A stretch of 64,000 bases of DNA, taken from the NCBI RefSeq assembly GCF_021228795.1, contig NZ_CP089309.1, positions 3,286,001 through 3,350,000 of the forward strand. Direction: 5' to 3'. The notes under the pieces are model-generated. The model ran no database searches. It worked only from the letters and a program-made list of their open reading frames with translations, and had not been told where the DNA came from. Below are positions 38,861-49,690 of this stretch, piece after piece. The position numbers and the translations under genes are program-made. Source of the DNA: Thiocapsa bogorovii. Lineage in GTDB: Bacteria; Pseudomonadota; Gammaproteobacteria; Chromatiales; Chromatiaceae. Within the stretch, counting starts at the first letter, position 1. The number at the start of each line of letters is the position of its first letter.

Positions 38861-40318
38861 GAGCTATTGTCAAATCTGGTGTATGACCATAGGGCCAGAG
38901 TTTGATCAGGCGGCTTCCCGTTGCTCCTCTTGGGTCTCCGGTGGGTCGTCGGACACCGGAATCCCGTCTTCGTAACGTGTTCCGCCGAGCAGTTCGGCCA
39001 CTTTCTCGGGGGCACGGATGCGCCGCCAGGTCTTGGCGGCCTCTTCGCTCATCTTGAAGGCCAGGCCGAGGAAGGTCGCGCGGGTGACGCAGTTCTTGGT
39101 CCGGCCGGTGCGATGGCGCACAGTGGCGAAGGTGGACTCGATGGGGTTGGTGGTGCGCAGGTGCACCCAGTGCTCGGCCGGGAAGGCGAAGAAAGCGAGC
39201 AGGGCCTCGCGGTCCTTTTCGAGCTTCTCGGTCGCCTTGGGGTATTTGGCCCCATAGCGGCTGATGAAGCGCTTGAAGGCTTGCGTAGCCTGCTTGCGGG
39301 TCGGTGCCATCCAGATCGCCTGCAGATCCGCCTTCGCCTTGCCTTGCAACGACTTGGGCAAGGCATTGAGCACGTTGCCCATCTTGTGGAACCAGCAGCG
39401 CTGATGCACGGTCTCGGGGTAGACCTGCTCAAGCGCACCCCAAAACCCCAGCGCCCCGTCGCCGACGGCCAGGCGCGGACCCGCCTGCAGACCACGTGCC
39501 TTCAGATCGCGCAGCACGTCGAGCCAGGATTCGGTGGATTCGCGCAACCCGTCGACGATGGCGACCCACTCCTTGGTGCCGTCGGGTCTCACCCCGATGA
39601 TCACCAGCAGACAGAGCTTGGGATCGTCGCTCTCGCGCAGTGTCGTGTAGATGCCGTCGACCCACCAGTAGGCGTATTGCCGGCCTTCGAGGCTGCGCTG
39701 GGTCCAGTCCTTGTACTCCTCGGCCCACGCGGCCTTGAGCCGGCCCAGCGCCGCCGCGGAGAGCCCTTTGGCGTCCTCTCCCACCAGCACCTCCAACGCC
39801 TCCCCGAGGTCGCCGCTGGAGATCCCCTTCAGATAGAGCCACGGCAGCGCCGCGGCGACCCGGGCACTGCGGCGCACGTACGGCGGGGCCAGCGCGGAGT
39901 TGAACTTCACCCCGGCCCCGGAGCGGTCGCGTACCTTGGGCACCTGCACCTCCACCGGACCCACCGTGGTGAGGATCTCGCGCGCCGGCAGATAACCGTT
40001 GCGCACCACCGCCCGGCGTCCGTCCATCAGCGACACCCCGGCAAACTCCTCGAGCAGCTGCTCCACCTCCGCCTCGATGGCCCGCTGCAGGATGTCGCGC
40101 GCCCCGCGGCGCACCAGCTCCTCCAGCGGCAGGCCCAGCTCGGCCAGCACCTCGCCCCGATCCCCTCTTGCACGGCGGGCCCCCGTACTCGTATCGTCGC
40201 TCATGGCGCACCTCTCTCGTTGCTGCTTTGGGTCTCGACAACCACATTGTCAGCAACGGTGCGCCGCCTGCTCAAGCTCTATCAGTCCCCGCTCATACAC
40301 CAGAATCGAGCATAGCTC
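38861..40318 (-). mobile_element. IS256-family insertion sequence
   Basis: A 1458-bp insertion. Terminal inverted repeats are visible: GAGCTATTGTCAAATCTGGT at the left (38861) against GAGCTATGCTCGATTCTGGT read inward from the right (40318), continuing GTATGA in both. The 9-bp direct repeat CGTCTTATG flanks it at 38852-38860 and 40319-40327. The element is complete and the transposase frame intact. Confidence 0.93.
38906..40204 (-). CDS. IS256-family (mutator-type) transposase
   Basis: A 432-residue transposase. It contains YAYWWVDGIYTTLRESDDPKL and VAIVDGLRESTESWLDVLRDL, then AVGDGALGFWGALEQVYPETVHQRCWFHKMGNVLNALPKS, and TTNPIESTFATVRHRTGRTKN with the final acidic residue, matching the D-D-E pattern of this family. 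The frame is uninterrupted, so the element may be active. Confidence 0.95.
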   Translation of the reverse strand: MSDDTSTGARRARGDRGEVLAELGLPLEELVRRGARDILQRAIEAEVEQLLEEFAGVSLMDGRRAVVRNGYLPAREILTTVGPVEVQVPKVRDRSGAGVKFNSALAPPYVRRSARVAAALPWLYLKGISSGDLGEALEVLVGEDAKGLSAAALGRLKAAWAEEYKDWTQRSLEGRQYAYWWVDGIYTTLRESDDPKLCLLVIIGVRPDGTKEWVAIVDGLRESTESWLDVLRDLKARGLQAGPRLAVGDGALGFWGALEQVYPETVHQRCWFHKMGNVLNALPKSLQGKAKADLQAIWMAPTRKQATQAFKRFISRYGAKYPKATEKLEKDREALLAFFAFPAEHWVHLRTTNPIESTFATVRHRTGRTKNCVTRATFLGLAFKMSEEAAKTWRRIRAPEKVAELLGGTRYEDGIPVSDDPPETQEEQREAA

Positions 40319-40793: not shown

Positions 40794-41843
40794 ATGCCGA
40801 TCCAGAACATCATCATCCACGAAGTGTCCAAAGAGCCGCAGGGCGCAGCTGCATTGACCCTCCGCAACGAAGAGAACCCCATCAACGAGCATGCCGAGCG
40901 CGTCAGCTCGAAGCTTGCCGGGCTCTTCACAGGCGTCAACATCGGCGGATTTCGGCAGCCTGAGGAGCCTGGGCTGCCACTGACCGCTTTCGAGTCACTG
41001 CTTCAAACGCATTTCGACGGCTCTGATTTCACCGATTTCGTCGCTTTCTCACGCGGAGCTGCGACGATTTTGGCAGACGCCCTCAACAGACCATCCGCAC
41101 AGTCAGCGAAGGGTGGATACCTGCTAATGAACCACTATACACATCAGGCCAACCACTTCCTGTCCGTGGTTATGCTGCGGATGCGGCAGGGTATCAGCCT
41201 AGGCGCCGATCTGAGCTTTGCCGAGGTTGAGGAGTTGAATCTCGACACCCTGCACATGGCAGGACGCATCAACCTCACCGAATGGCGCGGCGGTGCGAGT
41301 GAGCGATATATCGCGTTCAAGATCGGGCGCCAGGCGCGCGATGTTACCCAGTACTTTTCGGACTTCATCGGCTGCCGCGAATACACGGCCGCGAAGTTGG
41401 ACACTAGACATCTTGTTGAGGCGACCAAGACCTTCTGTGAACGACGATACCTCAGCGAGGCCGAAAGTGTGAGCGCAAAGCGAGCGGTCAGTGAGCTGTG
41501 CCGCGAACGCATCGAGAATGAACAGCCAGTCTTGATAGAGGACATATCCAACTTGCTCGATGCTCGGTTTCCTCCTTCTGACGAAGACCAGCGGGGCATG
41601 CTTCTCGCCATCGCCCAAGACGAATACGGCCTGACGAACAGGCTTTCGGCGGTCGACAAGAACGCTCTGCGATCGCTCGTCCGGTACCAGGGCAAGACGA
41701 GGCAACTATCGATCAGCTTCGATGCCGACCTCCTGGAACAAGGCGTCGTCCAATTCGACCCAGCCTCCAAGCAATTGACGATCAAGGAACTGCCGGAATC
41801 TCTTCTTGCGGACCTCGATCAATCTGTCGGTCAGACGCAATAA
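40794..41843 (+). CDS. Nucleoid-associated protein of the NdpA/YejK (NA37) family
   Basis: A 349-residue protein. It begins IQNIIIHEVSKE, has SSKLAGLFTGVN, GGYLLMNHYTH and FLSVVMLRMRQGISLGADLSFAEVEELNLDTLHMAGRINLTEW, and continues KDVTQYF-like ARDVTQYFSDFIGCREYTAAKLDTRHLVEATKTFC, all typical of the 37-kDa nucleoid-associated family. The chromosomal copy usually stands alone. Here it is followed after 2 bp by a membrane-protein gene, suggesting a dedicated two-gene module in an accessory island rather than the housekeeping yejK. Confidence 0.85.
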   Translation: MPIQNIIIHEVSKEPQGAAALTLRNEENPINEHAERVSSKLAGLFTGVNIGGFRQPEEPGLPLTAFESLLQTHFDGSDFTDFVAFSRGAATILADALNRPSAQSAKGGYLLMNHYTHQANHFLSVVMLRMRQGISLGADLSFAEVEELNLDTLHMAGRINLTEWRGGASERYIAFKIGRQARDVTQYFSDFIGCREYTAAKLDTRHLVEATKTFCERRYLSEAESVSAKRAVSELCRERIENEQPVLIEDISNLLDARFPPSDEDQRGMLLAIAQDEYGLTNRLSAVDKNALRSLVRYQGKTRQLSISFDADLLEQGVVQFDPASKQLTIKELPESLLADLDQSVGQTQ

Positions 41844-42423: not shown

Positions 42424-44157
42424 CCCGAATATTTCATAAAAAAGGGCGACTCTCGTTCAACCCATTGATAAAATGGCTGTTCCGCCAAGAACGCTTCGGA
42501 AGAAGCTAAACGAGGTCGCCCATGCCCGAGTCTACCCCGGAACAGCTGCGTTTTCCCCCGGTCGCCGGTTTCACGGTCCGCGGCGACTTCGACGGCGGCG
42601 CCATGTCGTCTGACTTTGGCCCCATGATTCTGCGCGGGGTTGATCGGCAGATCGGCCTGACCGAGCGGTTGAGCGCAGCGATCGATGATTGGCGCCATCC
42701 GTCCTACACCACCCATCCGATGCGTGAGCTGATCGCGCAACGGGTCTACCAGATCGCCTGTGCTTACGAAGACGGCAACGACGCCAATGCGCTGCGCCGT
42801 GATGCGCTGTTCAAGCTGGGGCTGGAGCGCAAGCCGCTGGATGCGACGACGGACCTGGCCAGCGGGCCGACCTTCTCGCGTTTGGAGAATGGGGTCGGCG
42901 CGCGCGACCTCTACCGCATGGCGCAGGCCTTCGTCGAGGCCTTCATCGCCAGCTACCCGAAGGCGCCGCAGGTGATCGTGCTCGATATGGACCACTCCGA
43001 AGACGCCACCCATGGCCAGCAGGAGTTCGCGTTCTACAATCATCACTACGGCAACCATTGCTACTTGCCGCTGTTTCTCTTCGAGGGCCTCTCGGGGAAG
43101 TTCATCACCGCGGTGCTGCGTCCCGGCAAGCGCCCCACCGGCGCCGAGAACGCGATGATCCTCAAGCGCGTGCTCAAGCGGCTGCGGGCCGCGTGGCCAC
43201 GCACACGCATCATCCTGCGCGGCGACGGACACTTCTCCAACCCCGAGTTGATGGCCTTGGCGATGGCCGATCCGTTGACGGATTTCATCTTCGGCCTGGC
43301 GGGTAACCGGGCTCTCACGCCACGGGCCGAGCCGTTCTTGGCCGACGCCCGCAAGCTCCATGCGCTGCGCATCGAGAACGCCCGGCGCGCCGACGCCGAC
43401 GTACCCGAGCGGACCCGCACCTACCACGAGGTTGACTACCGTGCCGGTTCCTGGCCCGGCGCGTGTCGGACCATCCTCAAAGTCGAGGTGACGGCGCGCG
43501 GCGACAACCTCCGCTTCGTCGTCACCTCCTTGGACTTGCCCAGTCCCGAGTGCGTCTACCGCGATCTGTACTGCGCGCGCGGCCAGGACGAGAACTTCAT
43601 CAAAATGATCAAGAACGATCTGGCCAGCGATCGCACTTCCGACAGCACCTTCTTGGCCAATCAGATGCGCTTGTTCTTCTCCTGCGCCGCTTACGTCTTG
43701 CACCAAACGCTGCGCACCGAGGTCCTCGTCGGCACGGAACTGGCCAACGCCCAGCCTGCCACCGTGATCATCAAACTGTTCAAGCTCGCCGTGCGCGTGG
43801 TGCAGTACAAAGACCGCGTGCGCCTGCACCTGCCCTCGAGCTGTCCGGTCAAGACGCTGTTGCAGCAGGTCACCGAGAGGCTCTTCAACGCGCAGCCCCG
43901 GCGGCGCCCGCCTAGACGCACATACATCCCCGCACGGGGATTTCAGCACGCGCACGACGACTATGCCCACCTCGGGCAGGGCATCGTACGCCTGCGCGGC
44001 GACAAAACTACTCGTGCCCCGTTGATCAAGCCCGTTGCCGCTCGGTATTTCCACCATTCAACCCCCGCGGCGTCCCGGTCATCGCCCTCGGTGACGCCCA
44101 GCGCCGCGCAAATCCGCGAGGCCAGTGTCGGCTGTGTCGGTTTATGAAACATCCGGG
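42424..44157 (+). mobile_element. IS1380-family insertion sequence
   Basis: A 1734-bp element with terminal inverted repeats CCCGAATATTTCATAAA (left) and CCCGGATGTTTCATAAA (right, reversed). It is flanked by the 4-bp direct repeat TTAG at 42420-42423 and 44158-44161, as usual for the family. It interrupts the membrane-protein gene next to the NdpA-like gene. Confidence 0.94.
42522..44147 (+). CDS. IS1380-family transposase
   Basis: A 541-residue DDE transposase. Acidic motifs are in VIVLDMDHSEDATHG, IILRGDGHFSNPE and CARGQDENFIKMIKNDL; NHHYGNHCYLPLFLFEG is also characteristic. It is complete and lies fully inside the inverted repeats, so it may be functional. Confidence 0.95.
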   Translation: MPESTPEQLRFPPVAGFTVRGDFDGGAMSSDFGPMILRGVDRQIGLTERLSAAIDDWRHPSYTTHPMRELIAQRVYQIACAYEDGNDANALRRDALFKLGLERKPLDATTDLASGPTFSRLENGVGARDLYRMAQAFVEAFIASYPKAPQVIVLDMDHSEDATHGQQEFAFYNHHYGNHCYLPLFLFEGLSGKFITAVLRPGKRPTGAENAMILKRVLKRLRAAWPRTRIILRGDGHFSNPELMALAMADPLTDFIFGLAGNRALTPRAEPFLADARKLHALRIENARRADADVPERTRTYHEVDYRAGSWPGACRTILKVEVTARGDNLRFVVTSLDLPSPECVYRDLYCARGQDENFIKMIKNDLASDRTSDSTFLANQMRLFFSCAAYVLHQTLRTEVLVGTELANAQPATVIIKLFKLAVRVVQYKDRVRLHLPSSCPVKTLLQQVTERLFNAQPRRRPPRRTYIPARGFQHAHDDYAHLGQGIVRLRGDKTTRAPLIKPVAARYFHHSTPAASRSSPSVTPSAAQIREASVGCVGL

Positions 44158-44980: not shown

Positions 44981-47900
44981 ATGAGCCATATCCCGGAAAC
45001 CCGCACGCTCTACGAAATCCTGCCAGCGAAGAGCCCTGCCAGCGGCAGGGAGTTTGCCCGCATCGTCAATCTGCTGCTGTTTCACGATGCCCGCCGCCGC
45101 GGCGAGAGCCTGACCTTGTTCGATGACCGTGCCGGCGACTTCCGTGGGCTCGATGCCTTTCAGCAAGGGGCCGCCTGTATCGCCGTGGGCTATCAGCACA
45201 AGTTCTATCCCACCCCACTGAGCAACGCCCATCGCAAGGAGATTGAGGAGTCGCTGCTCAAGACACGCGATCAGCTCCTGAAAAAAAAGACCGAGATCGA
45301 GAAGTGGGTTCTGGTCACCCCCCAAGACCCGGTGGAGTCAGCCACCCGCAAGACTGGGGGTGACGTCGCTTGGTTCGCCGGGCTGCGCGAGAAGCACGCA
45401 ATCGATTTCGAGCTCGAGCATTGGGGCCACACCCAGCTCCAGTCCCTCTTCGTCGAAACCCCCGCCATCGGTCTCTATTACTACCCGGAGCTGTTTTCCG
45501 ACGGCACGCTGCGCCGCAGGACCATCCAGGAGCAGCGCATCCGCTACGACAAGGCGATCCGGAACGAGCACGGGCGCATCGAGTTCGTCGGCATGTCCGT
45601 CTACAAACAGGAAGCGGCACGGACGGTGCCGATGGAGCACATCTTCATCCCCCTCGCCGTGGTCCCCGAGGGCGCGGAGGACGAAGATCGTGCCGACGTC
45701 CGCCATGATCCGAAGGGGCTCATCGCCGGTCATGGCCGCCACGTCATCCTCGGTGATCCAGGCTCGGGCAAAACGACATTGCTGCGATTTCTCGCCCTGG
45801 TTGGCCGTTCCGAGGCGCTGCAGAGGCGCTACCGGTCCCACGAACAGGGTTCGGCCTTCACCTTCGAGGAAGACGAGCGCCTGCCTGTCCTGATCACTCT
45901 ACGCCGTTACGCCGATGCCCTGAAGCAGGACGACAACCTTTCGCTGCTCGACTACATCCGGGCCAACATCGCCGCGGACTTCTCCATCGCTGATCTATCG
46001 GCTGAGTTTCTGGACTACCACCTGGAGTCGGGCAAGGCCATCCTGCTCTTCGATGGGCTGGATGAGCTGCCCAACCCCGCGTTCAAGCGCAAGGTACGCA
46101 ACCGGGTGCAGAACCTGGCCGAGGGCTATCCCGGCAACTGTCTCCTGGTCACCTCACGCGTCTACGGCTATGACGGCGCCTTCCGCTTCGACGACTCGGC
46201 TTGGCAACATCACCGGGTCGCCAGGCTCGGCATGGCCGAGATCGAGCGCTTCGTCGACGACTGGTATCGGGTGCGGGTGGAGCGTCCAAAGGACCGTCAG
46301 GACTACCAGCAGAGTCTCCTCGCCATCCTGCGCAACGAGGAGCACAAGGCGATCCGCGAGCTGGCGCGCAATCCGCTTCTGCTCACCATCATGGTCCTGG
46401 TCCACCGCATCGACGCGGTGCTTCCGGACGAGCGTCACGTGCTCTACCAGAAGTGCACCGAGACACTGCTCAACACCTGGCACACCTGGAAGTTCCACGA
46501 GATGGACCGGCTGCATCGCGCCAAGGTGGATCGGCTGAACATGCAGCGCATGCAGGCGATCGCCTGGTGGATGCAGCGGCGCATGGGCGAGACTGAAGCC
46601 GGTCGTCAGGCCGTCGTACCCTACTTGGATCTGCATGGTGAGCTCAGTCGGCACATCGCCGATGAGAAGCCGCCGAACCCGGACTATGCCCCAGAGGACA
46701 TCGCGACCGCCTTCATCGAGTTCGTCCAGGATCGGGCCGGGCTGCTGGTGGAGATCGGCGACCGCCAGTTCAGCTTCGTCCATCTCACCTTTCAGGAATA
46801 CCTCACCGCCGGTCACATCAGGACCCTGACCGAGCCACTCTCGCTGCGCGAGGCCTGGGAGCAGGAGATCGCCCCCTATTGCACGGATCCGCGTTGGCGC
46901 GAGGTGATCCGCCTGCTAGTGGCCAGCTATGGCGCCAATCGCAGCCAAGAAATGATCCTGGATTGGATGCTCGAGCTACCGCCCGATCCTCATCTCAGCC
47001 TGTTGCTGGGTGGACTCTACCTGGATGGGGTGGCGGCGGCTCAGATGGAGCTGGAGCAGGTGCTCGGGCGCTTGCTGGAGACCAGTATCGGAACGGATGA
47101 GCCCAAGCTGCTTGCAGACCAAGTGCGTCATCTCCGTGCTTGCCTTGACCGAAACGAAGGGTGCACCGACACCTTGATTAGGTCTGCCCGTTCCGTTCGT
47201 GGTTCGCTAGACGAGGATGGTCTGACGCGACTGCGGCTCGCCTTGGCGGCATGCGGCGTTGTACCGGATGGCATCGCGGATATCTGCGGAGCTGGCGCGC
47301 CTAAGGAGCAGGCATTCATTGCGCTCTTTTTCGGAGATGGACTGGATCCAGGTCTCCAAAATGAGATAGCCGATGATTTTGAATGGCTGTTAACCGCTAA
47401 TGATGCAACATTGCTCCAAGATGCAGGCGGCAGCTTTCTTGCGGCAATTGGCTGGAGTCTTCTGGATCGAGCCGGCTACCAGCCTTTCAAAAAGGTGTTC
47501 AGGACACTGCTTGCTTGCCTCTCCTACTCGCCATCGGGCGGTCCCTTGCCCTTCCTAATCAGCTATTGCGGGATGTCATCGCGGTTACAAGAGATCAGGC
47601 ATTTCTGTACTGCGATGACTCGGGCTCGGGCTCGGGCTCGGGATCGGGATCGGGATCGGGATCGGGATCGGGATCGGGATCGGGATCGGGATCGGGATCG
47701 GGATCGGGATCGGGATCGGGATCGGGATCGGGATCGGGCTCGGGATCGGGCTCTGGATCTGGATCGGGCTCTGGAGCGGGCTCGGGATCGGGATCGGGCT
47801 CGGCATCGGGCTCGGGATCGGGCTCTGGATCTGGATCGGGCTCGGGAGCGGGCTCTGGATCTGGATCGGGCTCGGGCTCGGGCTCGGGCTCTGGATCTGG

Positions 47901-48604
47901 GTTTGTGGAATCTTATCGACGGGCTCTTGTCTCGCTCCCCGCTTCCCTTTCTTCCGGAAGTGTTTCGCGATTACCTGTGGCGCGAATCGTATGTGCTGGA
48001 AGCTACTGCGGAGCATTTGGCCGTCGCCCTCGACCTTAGGCCTCGTCCGATCTGGCTGGAAGCCTTAAAGGTTTCGCGGTTGCGCACGCTCCCCGACGGA
48101 CAGCCACTCATGGATCCTGATCAATGGCGCTCAACCCTCGGGACCATCAGTACCGGCACTGCGAACGATCAGGCGGTCTGGTGGGCAGCCTCCCAGCTTT
48201 TCCTTGACGGTGCACTCTTCATGATGGGGTTCCACCAGCCGGACAAAGCCTGGTTGGGCGAAATGGGATATTCGGACGACATGATCAAGGCGCATTTGGC
48301 GTCCGCTGCCGAAACGCAATCCCTGTTCGCCGAGCTAGCCGAAAAGACCCGCGACCGTTCCGATCCTCCGCTGCGCATCGCCCACTGCATCCGCGACCTC
48401 ACCTACGGCGACGAGTCCAGGGCTGACGACCTCAAGGCAATGGTGGAATCCGACGACCCGGAGTACCACAGAATCTTCGTGGACTGCTGTTGGCTCCCCA
48501 CCGAGGAAGAGCGGATCAAGGAGGAAGCGGAGGAGGAGGAAAAAGACCGCCAGCGTCAGTCGACTCGCTTGCGACCCAAGAAAAAGCAAAGCGCCGAAGA
48601 GTAG
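44981..48604 (+). CDS. Nuclease-NACHT STAND protein with hexanucleotide-encoded repeat region
   Basis: A 1207-residue predicted anti-phage NLR-like protein. Residues about 1-165 resemble a PD-(D/E)xK nuclease ([21 protein letters not shown] in part, FRGLDAF, then AVGYQHKFY with the QxK signature). The NACHT domain follows: Walker [12 protein letters not shown] near residue 260, Walker [14 protein letters not shown] near 355, then [12 protein letters not shown] near 600. The C-terminal half is largely helical. Residues 881-972 are 46 dipeptides of Arg/Leu plus Asp/Ala/Glu encoded by a CGGGAT-type satellite. The end is strongly charged. AAGGAA precedes the ATG. In known bacterial NACHT proteins the C-terminal region senses phage; that role is inferred here. 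Confidence 0.85.
47621..47896 (+). repeat. In-frame hexanucleotide satellite within the NACHT gene
   Basis: Forty-six consecutive hexamers in frame with the gene. Sixteen perfect CGGGAT units stand in a row at 47639-47734. The rest are CGGGCT, CTGGAT, CTGGAG, CGGGAG and one CGGCAT. Each hexamer gives a dipeptide (Arg-Asp, Arg-Ala, Leu-Asp, Leu-Glu, Arg-Glu, Arg-His). Gain or loss of units keeps the reading frame, so length variation would alter only this region of the protein. Confidence 0.95.
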
Positions 48605-48665: not shown

Positions 48666-49115
48666 ATGTTCCTCAAGCAGCTCGCTCTGCAGAACATCCG
48701 CAGCATCAAGGAATTGGGGCTTTCCTTCGACACGGACGAGGGTCGGGTGCGCAAGTGGACCCTGGTTCTCGGCCAGAATGGCGCCGGCAAAAGTACGATC
48801 CTTCGTGCCGCGGCCCTCGTGACCGCCGGCAGCGAGGCGCTGCCAGAGCTACTGAAGAGCCCCGATGACTGGATCCGCATCGGCAGTGAGGCTTGCTCCA
48901 TCGCGGCCGACCTGGTGACCACCGACGGCGAAGAGCGGCAAATCGCTTTGACCTGGACACGAGGACAATCCATCCGCGACATCTTCGACAGGAATCGCGA
49001 AATCCTGGACCAACTGGACGCGGCGCTGAGCCACGCCCACCGGAACTATTTCACGGTCGGCTACGGAACCTCTCGTCGTCTACCGGGCACCCGCTCGTCA
49101 GGCCCCGTGCGTGAG
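48666..49115 (+). pseudogene. AAA/SMC-like ATPase, truncated by a group II intron fragment
   Basis: Only the first 150 or so residues of an ABC/RecF-type ATPase remain. MFLKQLALQNIRSIKELGLSF is the usual first strand, and the Walker A motif GQNGAGKSTILRAAAL follows near residue 40. The similarity stops near 49115, where the intron remnant begins; the frame continues to a chimeric stop at 49349. The signature, Walker B and C-terminal effector part are missing. It lies 61 bp after the NACHT gene and may originally have been its partner. Confidence 0.78.
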
Positions 49116-49690
49116 TTAAGTAGAGTCGACGACTGGCGCGGTAACCACAGGTCTCGGGGAGTAGCTGTTGCCGGCGGCTTTCGCCGGTGCCGGTGCCTCA
49201 GTCCGGACCATAGCCCCGTTTCCAGTCGCCGCTCGTCGCACCGGACGTGCGGATTTCCCGCATCCGGCGGTCGGACGAGGTGTCATGCGTTCGCCCACCG
49301 AAGGTTGCGCGTACGCACCGACAACCGCTGCAGCCCCAACACATCGTAGAGGTGCGCGTCAGGGAAGCGTGCGGTGCCCTGACCCGGCTGTTTGTGCTTC
49401 TTGCGTAACCACCAGCGCAGCCGCCCGCGTGCATGCTGATCGACAGCTCTATACGCACTACTCACCGGCCCGAGGGAGAAGTAGTTGGCCCAACCGATCA
49501 ATGTCCGGTTGAGACGTCCCACTCGCTCTTGCGGGTCCAGCAGCAGCCATCGTCGGCTGGTCAGACCACTGCACGGCCAGCCCCCGACCAACTCTCGCCA
49601 CTGCTCGCGACCGCGCCGCTTCTCCGCCATGCTGCTTCCCCTCGGTCCGTGGAACATGGCGGCATCTTGCAGATCGCGCAGCGCGCGGAA
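49116..49690 (-). mobile_element. Group II intron fragment (3' part)
   Basis: Minus-strand remnant of a group II intron, retaining the C-terminal part of the maturase gene, then a domain V-like hairpin (GCCGGATGCGGGAAATCCGC and ACGTCCGGTGC on the minus strand, around 49230-49265) and a 3' tail. The 5' intron domains and most of the reverse transcriptase are absent. The boundaries are approximate. Confidence 0.75.
49283..49657 (-). pseudogene. ltrA: Group II intron maturase, C-terminal fragment
   Basis: About 124 residues with the GIIM maturase region: VGRLNRTLIGWANYFSLGPV, SAYRAVDQHARGRLRWWLRKKHK, TARFPDAHLYDVLGLQRL and the terminal TRNLRWANA, closely following the C-terminus of bacterial group II intron proteins. 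The reverse transcriptase domain is missing, so the fragment cannot be functional alone. Confidence 0.85.

Follow-up and report, generated by a model that had tools for sequence, protein, structure and literature searches.

The window, i.e. the 64-kb stretch of the Thiocapsa bogorovii genome analyzed here, contains a gene for a 1207 amino acid long NACHT protein that carries an in-frame hexanucleotide array. The relevant features are:

38909-40204, minus strand: Mutator-family transposase, upstream of the NACHT gene
40794-41843: NA37 nucleoid protein
42522-44144, plus strand: DDE_Tnp_1_4 transposase, upstream of the NACHT gene
44981-48604, plus strand: NACHT gene (open reading frame of 1207 amino acids) with a nuclease-like N-terminus, a NACHT domain and a helical C-terminal half that carries the array
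44981-45490, plus strand: N-terminal part, residues 1-170, PD-(D/E)XK-like by its motif only
45743-46264, plus strand: NACHT domain, residues 255-428 (PF05729, 31.6 bits, curated cut-off 26.7)
46778-47590, plus strand: alpha-solenoid, presumed sensor, approximately residues 600-870 (AlphaFold model of residues 600-1207)
47621-47896, plus strand: hexanucleotide array of 46 units, residues 881-972
47639-47734, plus strand: 16 consecutive perfect CGGGAT units inside the array
47933-48520, plus strand: C-terminal helical domain, approximately residues 985-1180, conserved in array-bearing homologues

The gene on the 3' side of the NACHT gene (48666-49349) begins as an AAA_23/AAA_15-like ATPase and seems to be interrupted at about 49.1 kb by a maturase-like remnant; the minus-strand open reading frame at 49283-49657 is what we take to be a group II intron maturase-like remnant.

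An earlier note, made from the sequence, had described 46 in-frame hexamers, among them an unbroken run of 16 perfect CGGGAT units, and both the unit tally and genome probes confirm this description. The array is free of indels and consists of 20 CGGGAT, 16 CGGGCT, 7 CTGGAT, 1 CTGGAG, 1 CGGCAT and 1 CGGGAG units, so that the variants, as the note had it, stay close to CGGGAT, at a distance of one or two bases. Perfect copies are seen at lag 6 (90/90 positions), and the 16 perfect units are the youngest expansion of the array. Tandem Repeats Finder assigns it a score of 367, compared to 56-59 for the three other rows in the window. When the 5.65-Mb genome, a single contig, was searched with a probe of three CGGGAT units (at most one mismatch), all 19 matches fell inside the array. 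A degenerate 24-mer, again with at most one mismatch, matched just two places outside it, a short CGGGCT run (5604493-5604528) and a site at 4498549; no second array of such length was found in this genome, which elsewhere has short runs only.

The PF05729 match gives the protein the domain typical of NACHT STAND NTPases, and a NACHT match at E 0.01 was obtained for all 15 family members examined. The nuclease proposed in the note for the N-terminus is recognized by motif: the family consensus contains a D-x-x-G-L-D ... Q-x-K pattern, presumably the PD-(D/E)XK nuclease motif, which both Thiosymbion proteins lack, and Pfam nuclease models matched neither the T. bogorovii protein at E 0.1 nor the 15 members at E 0.01. 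Of an effector-NTPase-sensor layout, the NACHT domain and the helical C-terminal half are thus seen and the effector part is assigned by motif only. Built from 22 aligned sequences, the AlphaFold model for residues 600-1207 is all-helical, with a mean pLDDT of 81.1 and a pTM of 0.76, and leads from a confident solenoid through long helices at residues 872-985 (pLDDT 42-70) to the C-terminal domain. The C-terminal half would be the sensor, and the model suggests, at low confidence, that the array forms a helix after the alpha-solenoid, in agreement with the location proposed in the note. A fold search of the PDB with this half gave no match at E 0.001, and a sequence search of solved structures gave 15 matches, the best of which, NELF-E, extends over the low-complexity stretch. 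For the full-length model of the homologue L063 (pLDDT 76.3, pTM 0.57), NLRP3 chains were the best structural matches (E ~1e-7), with TM-scores below 0.3.

Avs and bNACHT antiphage proteins have an effector-NACHT-sensor layout, which the T. bogorovii protein would share. Unlike these, however, it was matched by no PADLOC model for such systems; PADLOC reported similarity to PtuA/mad8 ATPases only, with no model over its cut-off, and the NCBIfam search returned EruA at 15.2 bits (cut-off 1000) and nothing over cut-off. The protein thus matches no known defense family (Avs, bNACHT) in these searches, and its role in defense is putative.

Phylogenetic spread and length turnover of the array

Homologues were collected by scanning one genome for each of 84,980 species with two peptide patterns, which yielded 24 relatives. 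The alignment comprises 22 of them together with the T. bogorovii protein; L082 (short) and L077 (a stop breaks the frame) were left out, and no array was seen in the frames read of L077. The note had proposed a search for low-complexity segments at the same position, and this bore fruit in part: in eight of the 22 aligned homologues, a dipeptide array occupies the corresponding place in the alignment. The carriers, which include several metagenome-assembled genomes, belong to Phycisphaerales (L059, Planctomycetota), KSB1 (L060), Ktedonobacteria (L061, Chloroflexota), Hatepunaea (L063, Electryoneota), an ANME-2 archaeon (L065), Crocosphaera (L072, Cyanobacteriota) and Thiosymbion (L076 and L079). 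The array is absent from the other 14 (L062, L064, L066-L071, L073-L075, L078, L080 and L081); the fold is therefore not dependent on it.

A tree built from the NACHT and solenoid region has 23 rows and good support for 10 of its 20 inner branches. Presence of the array requires 3 changes on it, compared to a mean of 7.4 for shuffled labels, and only 1 of 500 shuffles was as low. Judged from these comparisons, the array is a recurring trait of one nuclease-NACHT subfamily across several phyla and not a one-off expansion. This subfamily is rare: among 386 cyanobacterial genomes its C-terminal profile matched 1, and among 350 Chloroflexota genomes 2. These three are among the seven genomes that supplied carrier or relative loci, all seven of which match by construction. 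In Thiodictyon-like genomes (L041-L044), gene copies occur in pieces of 51-76% identity that are broken or internally deleted, and no array was matched in them. Plasmid matches (36 records, all below 60% identity) align over approximately residues 151-663. In viral contigs, the peptide pattern matched 13 stretches, none of them a relative, and a second exact pattern gave no match. The array peptide itself is an insensitive query, because it missed the known array of G216.

The Thiosymbion orthologues L076 and L079 agree in 190 of 249 aligned residues ahead of the array segment and in 125 of 160 behind it (76-78%), yet the segment itself is 106 residues long in one and 63 in the other and also differs in pattern; the difference of 129 nt is not divisible by 6. 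The Thiosymbion pair thus shows fast array turnover between species. In a pair from Ktedonobacteria, the array of L061 consists of 47 live units, and L062 retains a decayed remnant in which CGT, CGA and TTA codons occur. The suggestion in the note that length and charge pattern can change holds for related species, which differ in length and composition. Internal copies at lag 18 are perfect in the L063 gene (66/66) and nearly so in L012 (86/90), and the perfect copies at lag 6 in T. bogorovii and at lag 18 in L063 point to recent expansion by different multiples of 6. Length change by slippage within species is plausible.

Such features could also arise from a neutral microsatellite, that is, from slippage in a tolerated linker with no sensing role, an explanation that we consider unlikely but regard as a serious contender. 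It would accommodate the 14 homologues without array, the decayed array of the close relative L062, and the short pure CGGGAT runs that occur elsewhere in Chromatiaceae (L045, L054, L299). What it fits poorly is the retention of a single place in the alignment by nine proteins of several phyla and the constancy of third codon bases across lineages described below, which is not expected from neutral slippage.

The CNG-GNT codon skeleton and its possible causes

Eight of the nine arrays (T. bogorovii, L059, L061, L063, L065, L072, L076 and L079) are built on one skeleton of alternating CNG and GNT codons with free middle bases; the ninth, that of KSB1 (L060), follows CNGGNG and was left out of the set. 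Among 271 CNG-type codons, the first base is C in 252 and the third G in 262, while the middle base is G in 137, T in 109, A in 18 and C in 7. The 266 GNT-type codons begin with G in 250 and end with T in 257 cases, with C (121), A (111), T (23) or G (11) in the middle; 19 codons of the eight arrays are of neither type. Codon choice differs strongly from the rest of the same genes: Arg is encoded by CGG in 125/127 cases versus 114/625, Ala by GCT in 114/119 versus 129/630, Leu by CTG in 96/108 versus 312/1035, Asp by GAT in 101/103 versus 330/552, and Gln by CAG in 17/17 versus 181/332. With one founder event per locus drawn from its own codon usage, and with lineages assumed to be independent, the chance of a shared skeleton is approximately 10^-19.

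In other dipeptide arrays, third bases vary (L052, L047, L053) or are uniform (L045, L048, L050, L051, L054). Because some of these arrays are uniform too, uniformity within an array is no proof, and it is the agreement between lineages that counts. Judging from the branch lengths of the tree, shared synonymous sites should have been lost at such gene divergence. The skeleton would then be held by a factor other than the protein, or the arrays would have a common source; protein-level selection or neutral slippage alone would not account for it. A test of array changes by codon type counted 18 synonymous and 64 nonsynonymous links, where 26.9 synonymous ones were expected (P=0.02), a modest excess of amino-acid change. 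Third bases are fixed in live arrays across phyla and have drifted in the decayed L062, which suggests that the skeleton is held at the DNA or RNA level. That the skeleton is shared across phyla is the most surprising result of this analysis.

Expansion driven by hairpins, of the type seen in CNG triplet repeats, is not supported. For the eight CNGGNT loci, 99-100 of 100 freely recoded versions were at least as stable as the real coding strand (84 of 100 for L060 of KSB1), and with one codon per amino acid this still applied to 63-95 of 100 versions on the coding strand and to 91-98 of 100 on the other. The arrays thus fold more weakly than recoded versions, which argues against hairpins as the driving force. 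Avoidance of structure does not suffice as the sole cause of the skeleton, since CNTGNT performs about as well as CNGGNT or better. In a comparison of eight skeletons, the rank of CNGGNT is 1-2 for the non-coding strand and, for the coding strand, 1-4 with DNA and 5-7 with RNA parameters; weak folding does not set it apart from other skeletons.

Free middle bases would also result from a diversity-generating retroelement (DGR), in which an error-prone reverse transcriptase randomizes the adenines of a CAGGAT-like template while copying it and so gives CNGGNT. The variable positions do coincide with the adenines of a (CAGGAT)n template. A CAGTCG template would likewise be compatible with the CNGTCG arrays found near the C-terminus of a second NACHT family in two genera of Chromatiaceae (L039, L040), where Ser is encoded by TCG in 80/81 cases versus 23/100 in the rest of the genes. 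Moreover, DGRs that diversify NACHT-associated targets are reported from Thiohalocapsa, a purple sulfur bacterium (PMC10907252). We nevertheless regard this explanation as very unlikely. Adenine is rare at the first variable position (18/271), and a search of ten genomes for a template with A at the variable sites, in the form (CAGGAT)4 with up to 3 mismatches, found 8 sites, each with 3 mismatches and each outside the array. The T. bogorovii genome has 13 RVT_1 open reading frames, the nearest at about 646 kb from the array; all eight that were compared match a group II maturase model, six of them over its cut-off, and four further ones score similarly. Among those compared, no DGR-type reverse transcriptase was found, and the search of this genome yielded no DGR. 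The reverse transcriptase result speaks against a retroelement in T. bogorovii, the one genome that it covers.

Another potential source is the capture of linker DNA read in another frame or strand, for example of Pro-Asp/Glu linkers (CCN GAN), which we judge to be improbable. The free third bases of such linkers would, on this equally improbable account, have become the free middle bases of the array. The opposite strand of the eight arrays encodes 69-97% Pro/Asp/Glu, and Pro-acidic linkers have CNGGNT runs on their opposite strand in L046 and the viral contig L304; as the opposite strand of Pro-Asp/Glu linkers yields the same skeleton, an origin by capture is conceivable. However, it requires captures that agree in frame and position in several lineages, or a single ancient capture followed by constraint. 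In addition, the plain probe CTGGATCGGGCTx2 gave 47 matches in eight of ten genomes, all 47 in the NACHT array, and thus found no such DNA elsewhere in the matching genomes, although a limit of 3 mismatches in 24 bases may miss diverged linkers.

Finally, the skeleton could be kept by translation of an overlapping gene. Read in the +2 frame, the array gives (Gly-Ser)n, and read from the other strand (Pro-acidic)n; variation in both is mostly synonymous or conservative. The +2 frame is nevertheless ruled out by stops that adjoin the array in L061, L063 and L072 and lie within about 20 codons in L065, and its flanks are not shared among loci. An antisense gene is rejected because, in seven of the eight loci, a stop occurs no more than 16 codons away from the array on one side or both. 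Overall, an overlapping gene is extremely improbable.

Proposed reading and relation to known systems

The reading that we favor, tentatively and at rather less than firm conviction, sees in the array a helical part of a nuclease-NACHT receptor that has been kept for long and evolves fast, situated where the alpha-solenoid gives way to the C-terminal domain. In-frame slippage or unequal recombination would alter its length by whole hexamers, as suggested by the internal copies and the homologues. Its residue pattern, as comparison of the arrays shows, shifts chiefly through the middle bases of the CNG and GNT codons, leading to Arg/Leu/Gln and Asp/Ala/Val swaps. These changes may retune the sensor half, in its charge, its reach or its contact surface, and in this way alter the trigger of the receptor or the ease of triggering, while a factor acting on DNA or RNA would keep the skeleton fixed. 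In favor of this reading are the shared place in the alignment, the low number of changes on the tree, the turnover in the Thiosymbion pair, the perfect internal copies, the codon skeleton, the confinement of all plain-probe matches to the NACHT array, the modelled helix and the CNGTCG arrays of the second NACHT family. Against it count the 14 homologues that lack the array, the 129-nt difference of the Thiosymbion pair, which is not a whole number of units, the modest excess of amino-acid change, the low confidence of the helix and the failure of any defense model to match over its cut-off. A more far-reaching version, which we consider doubtful, holds that the array is a retroelement-free, self-diversifying sensor, long kept in NACHT receptors from bacteria and one archaeon, with a skeleton held at the DNA level. 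Its corollary, no less doubtful, is that unit number and middle bases vary freely and that changes in length or charge never produce a stop codon.

To our knowledge, no cross-phylum skeleton is known for the repeats of E. coli tolA. The units of the fungal NLRs het-d and het-e are presumably domain-sized WD40 repeats, whereas the T. bogorovii units are two residues long; the present arrays thus combine near-identical units and between-species turnover with dipeptides instead of domains. High internal repeat conservation is described for het-d/het-e (PMC12222747), and these proteins resemble the T. bogorovii protein as NACHT receptors in which sensor variation arises via near-identical tandem repeats. 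For tolA, PMC3477136 reports intragenic tandem repeats with measured strain variation; it is similar in having a repeat inside a coding gene with in-frame number variation, but it encodes an envelope protein and not an NLR-like receptor.

The note had spoken of a contingency locus. The array is indeed a short tandem repeat within a gene, and it shares simple repeats and slippage-type change with simple-sequence contingency loci, which arise by slipped-strand mispairing (PMC4081817 and PMC5084427). Such loci mostly switch or tune expression, whereas unit changes in the NACHT array are in frame and alter a protein segment. Whole-unit slippage changes the length but can never switch the gene off, and in this respect the array is unlike a classical on/off contingency locus.

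Retroelement-driven diversification of bacterial NLR-like systems is already in print, and PMC7159879 describes conflict systems with retroelement diversity. The closest parallel (PMC10907252) is Thiohalocapsa PB-PSB1 with its DGR-diversified NACHT-associated antigen sensors: both cases concern purple sulfur bacteria, NACHT proteins and variation aimed at a presumed sensor. In Thiohalocapsa, however, a reverse transcriptase and a template repeat mutate a C-type-lectin domain, whereas T. bogorovii has a hexamer array in a helical region and, as far as its genome was searched, no DGR reverse transcriptase. Among the open-licence PubMed Central records listed, none describes hexamer arrays within NACHT proteins of bacteria. 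Bacterial NLR-like proteins have to track changing triggers, and a short, fast-changing satellite retained at a single receptor site in several phyla, on a codon skeleton not accounted for by protein selection, would, if the reading is correct, be a much simpler route to variable sensors than retroelements. It would further predict that array length or pattern sets specificity or threshold.

Similar repeats in other genes

A further sample comprised 100 NACHT stretches with frames of at least 950 amino acids (40 cyanobacterial and 60 from Chromatiaceae, taken from among the matches listed), some of which stop at contig ends. A repeat scan at lags 6-24 detected arrays in two of these NACHT open reading frames (L189 and L198), and 60 shorter loci (L106-L165) contributed two more (L125 and L151). 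In all four, the array lies in the last quarter of the open reading frame. The Pro/Glu-rich repeat match of L212 was rejected as a NACHT array, since it sits in other open reading frames. Such arrays are therefore rare among NACHT proteins at large, yet recurring.

In L198 (reverse strand), the hexamer array covers approximately residues 1110-1198 of a 1287 amino acid long Crocosphaera NACHT protein. L198 and L104, a cyanobacterial pentapeptide-repeat-like protein, have Ala-Phe/Ala-Val/Ala-Gly hexamer arrays that look transmembrane-like (all labels by eye). In the cyanobacterial NACHT arrays of L189 and L151, most codons end in C, and such codons are rare in the rest of the gene. A CGGGAT-type repeat lies opposite a Pro-Asp/Glu linker in L046, and another, apparently intergenic, at approximately 1475-1535 of L299 from a Thiosymbion genome. 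The (Thr-Asp)190 array of L053 (reverse strand) occupies an 807 amino acid long open reading frame and varies at third codon positions alone.
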